Assembly (NCBI GenBank): GCA_029204225.1
Contig: CM055103.1
Coordinates: 8,016,866-8,080,865 of the forward strand
Length of the DNA: 64,000 nt
Direction: 5' to 3'
From: Diphasiastrum complanatum
Lineage: Eukaryota > Streptophyta > Lycopodiopsida > Lycopodiales > Lycopodiaceae
This document shows, in pieces, positions 60,257-64,000 of this stretch (positions are counted from its first letter, which is position 1; each line of letters begins with the position of its first letter). The translations under genes were made by a program, and so were the position numbers. The notes beneath the pieces are model-generated. The model ran no database searches, was not told the origin of the DNA, and was given only the letters and a program-made list of their open reading frames with translations.

Positions 60257-60378
60257 TCTCTCTCTCTCTCTCTCTCTCTCTCTCTCTCTCTCTCTCTCTC
60301 TCTCTCTCTCTCTCTCTCTCTCTCTCTCTCTCTCTCTCTCTCTCTCTCTCTCTCTCTCTCTCTCTCTCTCTCTCTCTC
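60257..60378. repeat. (CT)n microsatellite, left of the Penelope-like element
   Basis: About 122 bp of pure TC, the longest complete CT tract in the window. The sequence changes abruptly at CATGGGCTCTGTTACG. Confidence 0.97.
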
Positions 60379-61670
60379 ATGGGCTCTGTTACGTAAATAT
60401 GTTACTCTATTTACTTTGCAAACCTCTGTAGAATGCAAATGTCGTGTAATAATCCTTTTTACTAGTCGGGGCGGAAGAAAAATGCCTTGCTATGATAGAA
60501 GATCCCATTTATTAAAAAAAAAAAATTAAAAAAAGTGGTGGAAAAGTTGGTAGTCTTTCCAAGGGCCAAGACCTGTGCACATTTTGAACAGTCAATCTAA
60601 CGGTGGGCAGCAATTTGCACTTAGTACACCTAAGTGTCCTCTGATTCTATAAAGAGGGAAGTCACAAAACCCTATTCACTTTCCCTCATACTTTCCTGCT
60701 TTCTCTCTCTCTCTCTCCCCTTCAGCCCTGCTCTACTGGTGCTTTTCTTTACGGTGATTGCTATTGAAGAGGAATACTCGTGAAAGCTACTAGAAGTGCA
60801 ATCGTGTGAACGATACTGCAACCTAAGGTGAGAACGCTATGCGGAATGCTACCTCGCTGATAATGAAGGTTTTGTGTTGTACTTTACGATTAGGAATGAA
60901 TGTTTACAACTTGTTGTGATCACCATTGTATAGTAGCAAGTTTTGGCTTGCAAAACTGTGATTCGGCATTCTGACAATCAGGCGCTGCCTCAAGGAGCAG
61001 TAGTGGGCACCTTTACAGGTATTTTTTTCTATCACTGATTGAGTTATAGTTGGCGCTGGACAGGGATCCAGGTGTATACAAAAAGTATCACTGATTATGT
61101 GTGACTAGTAGTCGTTGGCTAGCGCTATTTGTGTAGCGGAATGGGCCGCTAGTAGCGCTGCTTTTTAAGTATAAATTCCATATTGATACTGCGATGAAGC
61201 ATGGCCTTGCATGCATGCATTATTCCACGCATTTTACAGTATGTAAGGATGGAAAAAGTGCGATGGACCGTTGTCTTTACTTATGGATTCCAGTGATTAC
61301 AATGATGAATGCTTATATGTGATCGATAAGAGCATTCCTGCTATTCCATTGGCTGTAACTTGCTATAATTGGTTGATCTGGATGATTGCTACGGTTGTAT
61401 GATACAAACTATGATGATTGTTGCCTCTGATAAGGAGTAGATTGGCTTCTAAGAGTGTAACTTGAAGAATGCTTGGGTTGATTGTTTCTTTCTAAGAAGA
61501 TGTATACACAGAACATGATTCTCTGTATGTTGTGGATATTGTGGGGAAGGAACTGCTCTTGAATAAGTTGAATGATAAGTTAATAATCTGTGACAAAATG
61601 ATGGGTTAACTATTGTTAAAGACTATGAGGGTGACAGAAGTACTTCACACTTAACACAATACTTTCGGTT
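60379..61670 (+). other. 5' region of the Penelope-like element (inferred)
   Basis: Non-coding by eye. Has TATAAAGAGGG near 60650 and a short CT tract at 60701-60718. No GIY-YIG endonuclease pattern could be read in any frame, though the region may be too decayed to show one. Confidence 0.4.
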
Positions 61671-61689
61671 TGAATCTTCTAGCACACAA

Positions 61690-63841
61690 TGGAAATAACA
61701 AGAAGAGGAAGTACTTTCCAAACAAAGGCAAAGAAGGACAAAGCAGTGGTGGAAAGGGAGATCTTCCTATCAAAAAGCTGAACTTTTACCGTGATTGATC
61801 CATGTGCAGGAAGACATAGAAGAAACAAGGATATTGGAGGTCAACAATACTGGTAGACGACGACTAGTGGTTAGAAGAGACAGAGGGAAGTTTTTTTCTG
61901 CATTTACGTTATTATAACATATGCTTTGAGAGGATTGATGTCAAACAATTATATGCTGAAACCTTACTTCATATTTTTGGTCACATTGATGAAACTTTTG
62001 AGCTTATCGTATTTGGTTGGTCTTATTTTCCACATTTGAAGCATGAATAATATAAACTCTTTCAAGTTTTTTGTGATTTCAATGTTGACAACATTCCACC
62101 TTGTACTTGCGCTTACAATAAACGTTTTAAAGAGTTCAATGTTGAAATTTTTCGGCATGTTGTCTCGATGGATACTGGAATTATTAGAAGCAAAGTTTTA
62201 AATAATGACTTGAACAAAGGTCTTAATCATATCCCATTGCGCCAGTCTAATATAAGTGAGGTGTCTTTAAAACTTTATCGTGGATGGTTTGAATTGGCAA
62301 GTTTTTTGCCTACTTATCAAAATATTGATCATGAGATTGTTATGGAACATGCCTTGATTTGCAAAGATGTTGTTACAAACTTTTTGAAAAATACCAAGTG
62401 GCTACATGGAAAAAGGGTTATGAGTAACAAACTTACAAATGCCATTGATGAACGTAATTGGATTACTACCAATCTATATATTAATGGTCTAAATAAGGTG
62501 CAACATAACCCGTGTTTTATGTGCATCTACTTTGTAAGAAGTTTGGCTTTGGTTAGACTGTCTAGTCCTGATTTTGTCCCGTTTCCAAATGAAAATGATA
62601 ATACACTAGATGTGGCTATGATTACTTTTGCTACTAAAATACCTGATTTTGTAATAGGGAAAGAAGAATTCTCTTTCTTACTTTGTACTTTCAAAGCACA
62701 CAAAAATGCGTTCAGATGGATTACAAATGCACATGACTGCTATTTTTCAAAGGTGGCCACGTTTATTTCTGGAGCTCTTGGTATACTGACTCCTCTCCTT
62801 ATGGAGAGAGCAAGCCTTAAGGCAACTTTATACCGGAGTATCCTAAATGTGGATACTAACCTATTCTAGCAGTGCGACTCATCCACTGAATTTTATCTTA
62901 ATGTGCCTAACAAAATCACTTCCATGTGGTCCACTGACAAAGCAAAATGCTATGAAAATATTACTCTTTATGGTCCGGATGGGCTAAAAATTATAATACG
63001 GAAAATGATAAGGTATGCATTCAAGTCTTGTAAAAACAAAAAGCTTGCCTATCAGTGAAAATTGAGCGTTAAGCAATTTGACTGGAAATGGGTGACCAAT
63101 CAGACTGATAATTGGACTGTGATTGACATAGAACCTCTTTGCCATTATAATGATATACTGATTGACAATTGCATAGTAAGATTAGAAAATAGGACTTGGA
63201 AACAAGTCTGTGGTATTCCTATGGGTTTTGCATGTTCTCCTACATGGTGTAACTGGTATTTGTCATTCTTTGAAATACATTTTATGAAAAGACTGGCCAG
63301 ACTTGGAAAAGTGGAATACCTACATGCCTTCAAGCATACTTTCCATTATATTGATGATATTTGTTTTATAAACAACACAGATGCTCTTGTATTCCTAGAC
63401 AAGATGCAACCTCGTATCGATGATAATGCCTTATGGATCTATCCCTTGGAGTACCTCACTATAGAAAAAGAAGACGCTTCGGATAACACGGTTAATTTTT
63501 TGAATATTACCACTACCTTTGATTCTTTATCAGGAAAGTTTCATATGAAAATTTTTGACAAGAGACGAGAACTTCCGTTTTCGTTCTTTCAGTATATACA
63601 CTTAACTGTGAATAGGCCGATTATGAACTCGTATAAAGTAATTGTCACTCAGATTATTGCTGTCATGTACTGTTGTAGCGAACTGGATACCTTTATGGAT
63701 GAGGTCAAAAACATTGTTCTTGCTTTTCAAAATAATGGCTTCATGAGAGGAAGATTGTATGAGATTTTAAACAACCTGTTTTTACGTGAATTGTTCCCCG
63801 GGCTCAAGTTTACTTTACCAAAAAAAGCTAAATTTCTTTAG
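61690..63841 (+). pseudogene. Penelope-like (PLE) reverse transcriptase, inactivated
   Basis: One frame runs 61690-63841 with six stop codons (61796, 61817, 61865, 62048, 62867, 63056) and no frameshift. In order: a basic segment (NNKKRKYFPNKGK); a C-x-C pair at 62102-62110 (PPCTCAYNKRF) followed by HVVSMDTGIIRSKVLNNDL; a long N-terminal RT part with FKAHKNAFRWITNAH near 62690; motif B-like CGIPMGFACSP near 63220; the catalytic YIDDICFINN near 63350; then NFLNITTTFDS and KIFDKRRELPF. The GIPMG/YIDD/IFDKR order and the upstream C-x-C match PLE-type RTs, possibly the Chlamys/Naiad branch. Telomerase-related RTs share the YIDD type, but the overall pattern is not TERT. The exact clade is an inference. 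Confidence 0.68.
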
Positions 63842-63843
63842 GT

Positions 63844-63887
63844 GGGCAGTTAGCACTCCATCTCAGGGGTGCTAACTGCCCCCTGAG
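63844..63887 (+). other. Two overlapping inverted repeats after the PLE stop codon
   Basis: Stem A: GGGCAGTTAGCAC (63844-63856) pairs perfectly with 63869-63881, loop 12. Stem B: TCTCAGGGG (63861-63869) pairs perfectly with 63879-63887. The arms interleave, so the full stems cannot form together. They begin two bases after the TAG. Role unknown; an RNA signal for the element's 3' end is possible. Confidence 0.75.
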
Positions 63888-63917
63888 AGACTTTGTTGAT
63901 GCGTATGGTTGGTGGGT

Positions 63918-64000
63918 TCTCTCTCTCTCTCTCTCTCTCTCTCTCTCTCTCTCTCTCTCTCTCTCTCTCTCTCTCTCTCTCTCTCTCTCTCTCTCTCTCT
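63918..64000. repeat. (CT)n microsatellite, right of the Penelope-like element
   Basis: At least 83 bp of TC, cut by the window edge. It starts 77 bp after the RT stop codon. Confidence 0.97.

Follow-up and report, generated by a model that had tools for sequence, protein, structure and literature searches.

What does a reverse transcriptase (RT)-like reading frame that lies between two long CT repeats represent, and does the arrangement record an insertion into a microsatellite? The question arises at the right end of the 64-kb window (the whole stretch of Diphasiastrum complanatum DNA that was analysed), where the original prediction placed a Penelope-like element (PLE) that had entered a (CT)n microsatellite and split the array as its target. 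The reading that is somewhat favored here is that the locus holds a plant retroelement copy that has decayed and can no longer move, with an RT and no detectable endonuclease (EN), perhaps an EN-less PLE, and that the CT tracts flank it by chance.

The reverse transcriptase-like frame

The frame and the tracts on either side of it have the following positions:

60257-60378, + strand: left tract, perfect (TC)61 (read from the sequence)
61868-63841, + strand: RT-like frame of 657 codons with three in-frame stops before the final stop (reading of the open frame, composition and RVT_1)
63158-63379, + strand: stretch matching RVT_1, residues 34-107 of the last frame piece (Pfam)
63918-64000, + strand: right tract, perfect (TC)41.5, running off the window end (read from the sequence)

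An RT-like frame on the plus strand between the tracts was found as predicted, and the start proposed for it at 61690 had to be given up. The ATG at 61689 does not belong to the RT frame, which has stops at 61796, 61817, and 61865, and position-specific composition gives no coding signal in 61690-61867 (chi2 5.3), leaving an open part that runs from 61868. This open part is interrupted at 62048, 62867, and 63056 before the final stop at 63839, and a full-length protein from the RT copy at 61868-63841 is unlikely. Over the RT region, three stops in the RT frame compare with 28-74 in the five other frames, and the codon-position composition of 61868-63838 gives a chi2 of 61.7 (6 df), with values of 41.6 and 22.5 in the two long frame pieces and a weak coding signal in the two short ones (9.8 and 6.3). 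The CpG ratio (0.53 in the RT region versus 0.51 in the window) carries no special signal of decay.

Pfam recognized RVT_1 in one of the four frame pieces (E 1.4e-4 on 63059-63838, below the curated cut-off), and the read-through protein returned the same single RVT_1 match (E 4.1e-4). The matching stretch contains the motifs GIPMG (from 63212) and YIDD (from 63347). For the last piece, NCBIfam and PHROGs gave weak matches to a group II RT (E 0.016) and a phage RT (E 0.0011), the remainder being at chance level. In the PDB, the read-through protein had no match at E up to 10, and the last piece matched five non-RT chains in a chance-like manner (E 0.4-0.81); a single-sequence AlphaFold2 model of the RT was unusable (mean pLDDT 31.9). 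The motifs GIPMG and YIDD are followed by VNFLN and a tail containing DKR, an arrangement resembling that in Penelope-like RTs of algae and early plants; this is a lead rather than a test, and membership among the PLEs is possible but unproven. Relatives of the RT were sought by tblastn (phages), by degenerate-peptide scans and GIPMG-core DNA patterns (viral and prokaryote contigs), and by blastn (plasmids); none was found in these viral, phage, plasmid, and prokaryote collections, a result that says little about plants. The peptide patterns matched five stretches in the viral set and 17 in the genome contigs, none of which was confirmed by tblastn.

On the C-terminal side, the frame ends at 63839 after the RT, where no nuclease was found, and Pfam recognized no GIY-YIG domain in the four pieces. 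On the N-terminal side, a six-frame search of 60379-62050 (E up to 5), which a badly decayed domain could escape, returned no GIY-YIG domain, and its sole match was SWIRM-assoc_2 (E 0.025). Within the limits of a decayed copy, the locus has an RT without an endonuclease, as EN(-) PLEs do.

Elements of the Naiad/Chlamys type carry a GIY-YIG endonuclease at the N-terminal end, and their frame is expected to stop soon after the RT core. The present frame also stops soon after the RT core, whereas the locus has no detected N-terminal GIY-YIG. Chlamys PLEs occur in the brown alga Ectocarpus (PMC12477816, excerpt). Dryad, a Penelope/Poseidon type in conifers, is a PLE in a plant, but it is EN(+), and the present RT has no nuclease after it (PMC9033089, excerpt). 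The same excerpt lists EN(-) PLEs for Selaginella, Pinus taeda, and Picea abies, which resemble the present locus in having a plant host and an RT frame without a detected nuclease (PMC9033089). According to an excerpt of PMC3846280, EN-less PLEs prime at exposed chromosome ends (deprotected telomeres or breaks), to which telomeric repeats are then added. In this association with telomere repeats they differ from the present case, as the 64-kb window has no telomere array, and its three scattered CCCTAAA matches compare with 7.6 expected.

The rest of the window yielded no second copy (best match of 60379-63917 against 1-60257, E 0.18), and for want of another copy it is unproven that the locus is a retroelement and not a single gene derived from an RT. 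The other RT-like pieces in the window were labelled by eye as one gypsy-like, two LINE-like, and one copia-like, two of the four being without a Pfam match; compared with the read-through protein, their best BLASTP E was 0.74, and phmmer returned none at E up to 10. Additionally, no pLTR was found in 59500-64000, where the window cuts the right side, and no hammerhead was found in 60000-64000 (Rfam at E up to 5, and a scan of both strands for the CTGANGA...GAAA core).

Elsewhere, the window contains an LSD1-type zinc finger with caspase-domain pieces (1266-2642, minus strand), two PTR2 transporter pieces (39554-40435 and 42314-42892, minus strand), copia-type gag matches, and other RVT_1 frames, a content that suggests plant DNA. 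A dispersed repeat is present in two direct copies (10530-11428 and 53087-54022; 84.6% identical over a 946-column alignment), and a tandem duplication (33867-34790; 92% identical over a 469-column alignment) lies just upstream of a LINE-like RT region. The minisatellite at 25285-26956 is built of 18-bp units (TTTTTTCAATGACTCGAA type), and its inverted partner array occupies ~26550-26956.

The two ends of the locus

Three features bear on where the element may have begun and ended:

60648-60653, + strand: TATA-like site, then a CT-rich leader, a possible promoter (consensus match only)
60828-61682, + strand: possible leader intron, AG/GTGAGA ... TTCTAG/, with the ATG at 61689 after it (consensus match)
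63835-63890, + strand: strong hairpin at the stop codon, with 16 uninterrupted inner pairs and a 6-base loop (folding)

The original prediction took the unit to run from 60379 to 63917, and this delimitation was not confirmed: nothing was found to mark its left edge, no repeat frames it, and the window has no second copy. Apart from the CT runs, no long direct repeats frame the unit in 59500-64000; a comparison of the 300-bp segments preceding the two tracts gave no match above chance level (the right side ends at the window edge), and a target duplication within a CT array would not be recognizable as such. The TATA-like site, the CT-rich leader, and the donor-like site hint at a promoter ~270 bp inside the supposed left end, which does not favor 60379 as the point where a transcribed retroelement would begin. 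If a transcript did start ~300 bp inside the left tract, an insert made from RNA would not have this tract at its 5' end unless an upstream partial copy supplied it; no such copy was seen. A second TATA-like site lies at 61170, and the splice-like matches in 60640-61700 comprise one donor-like and 10 acceptor-like sites, from which the acceptor TTCTAG/ (to 61682) was picked by inference. A sigma-type promoter scan is not meaningful for plant DNA.

The 3' side is more distinctive. None of 200 shuffles of 63830-63917 folds as well as the hairpin (z -5.8), which could serve in recognition by the RT. The right tract starts 77 bp past the RT stop, and 27 bases separate the hairpin from the CT repeat. 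In 60000-64000, Rfam at E up to 5 gave four sub-threshold microRNA/snoRNA matches, all of them over this hairpin; at the gathering threshold there were no matches in the window.

If the locus is a decayed retroelement copy, its live parent would have been transcribed from a promoter near 60650, and the parent RT would have copied the transcript onto a free 3' end of DNA, perhaps after recognizing the 3' hairpin. The two CT tracts would then most likely be ordinary microsatellites of a CT-rich stretch and not a split target.

Density of CT tracts and competing readings

Both (CT)n tracts of the original prediction are present, and both are perfect; the CT phase that they share, which had been taken as a sign of a divided array, is near expectation, since the 64-kb window contains eight perfect CT/AG tracts ≥50 bp long, of which seven are CT and one is AG. 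The left tract measures 122 bp and the right at least 83 bp, compared with 58-113 bp for the six other perfect tracts. Neighboring tracts are separated by 24216, 12489, 3457, 6807, 2309, 9803, and 3539 bp, so that three of the seven gaps are ≤3.6 kb. Random placement of eight tracts (20,000 runs) produced a mean of 2.6 such gaps, and at least two of them in 84% of runs; the gap sizes are in agreement with random tract placement. The second gap of ~3.5 kb (3457 bp) is comparable to the 3539 bp at the RT locus and is without a copy of the RT element. Other CT/AG tracts occur in varied settings, one between the two PTR2 gene pieces (probably in an intron) and another ~280 bp past an ORF labelled by eye as LINE-like. 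A compound microsatellite at 24969-25166 consists of (CT)41 leading almost directly into (TA)n.

The best argument for a real link is the proximity of the tracts to the RT frame, an argument owed mainly to the 3' side, where the tract is unusually near, as the left one is not. For the RT frame alone, the chance of a tract ≤1312 bp upstream is 0.15, that of a tract ≤77 bp downstream is 0.008, and that of both flanking distances is 0.0012, all three being post hoc and uncorrected for other coding ends in the window. The short distance from the stop to the right tract fits an element end better than a coincidence, and it counts against the reading in which the tracts flank the copy by chance.

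Among the alternatives, the one that draws most directly on this distance regards the right (CT)n as the element's own 3' simple-repeat tail, of the kind that some LINE-type elements acquire when they are reverse transcribed, with the left tract unrelated. Simple-repeat tails occur in other non-LTR elements, and the tract stands in a suitable place, close after the stop and behind a strong hairpin. However, for ≥83 bp of perfect repeat to stand beside a frame with three stops, it would need maintenance or regrowth, the rest of the window is rich in CT tracts, and it yielded no second copy for comparison; the tail reading is unlikely.

Insertion into a (CT)n microsatellite, with the array split as the target, is somewhat more doubtful. 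In this scenario, a break or a slipped end in the CT array could prime an EN-less RT by pairing with CU- or GA-rich RNA. The tracts have the same orientation on both sides, and the low uncorrected chance of both flanking distances for the RT frame alone speaks for it. A plant precedent is provided by MuTAnT, Mutator-like transposons of Medicago, whose 218 copies lie predominantly in (TA)n, 14 of the 218 not being in perfect (TA)n (PMC4486113, excerpt). MuTAnT resembles the present locus as a plant element flanked by a dinucleotide microsatellite, but it is a DNA transposon family of 218 copies, whereas here there is an RT frame at one locus with CT repeats. Microsatellites often surround various plant and human TEs (PMC12477314, excerpt). 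Among the literature titles listed, none concerned a plant PLE in (CT)n, which says little. Against a split array stand the single locus, the density of tracts and their prevailing CT orientation, the gap of similar size elsewhere without an element, and the possible promoter inside the left edge. Additionally, each flank is about as long as the other tracts and so need not be half of an array, a weak point because occupied MuTAnT sites are also longer than empty ones (PMC4486113, excerpt).

Alternatively, the locus may not be a mobile copy at all: it could be the pseudogene of a single host gene derived from an RT, with a promoter, a leader intron, and a single coding frame. The TATA-like site, the CT-rich leader, and the donor-like and acceptor-like sites are consistent with such a gene, as is the failure to find terminal repeats within 59500-64000 or a further copy elsewhere in the window. 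However, these signals are only consensus matches, the scanned stretch having 10 acceptor-like and two TATA-like ones, and an intron is not decisive, since PLEs are also described as containing introns (PMC11722881, excerpt); a host pseudogene is improbable. Least probable of all, and very unlikely in its own right, is an EN-less plant PLE that uses (CT)n, in place of telomeres, for free or slipped DNA 3' ends, with every copy inside a CT array.

On present evidence the locus is ordinary, and (CT)n targeting is possible but doubtful. What the CT-rich stretch contains is an RT copy in decay, and the retroelement type to which it perhaps belongs occurs patchily in plants. If copies prove to lie in (CT)n, they would show how an endonuclease-less retroelement can spread at internal sites.
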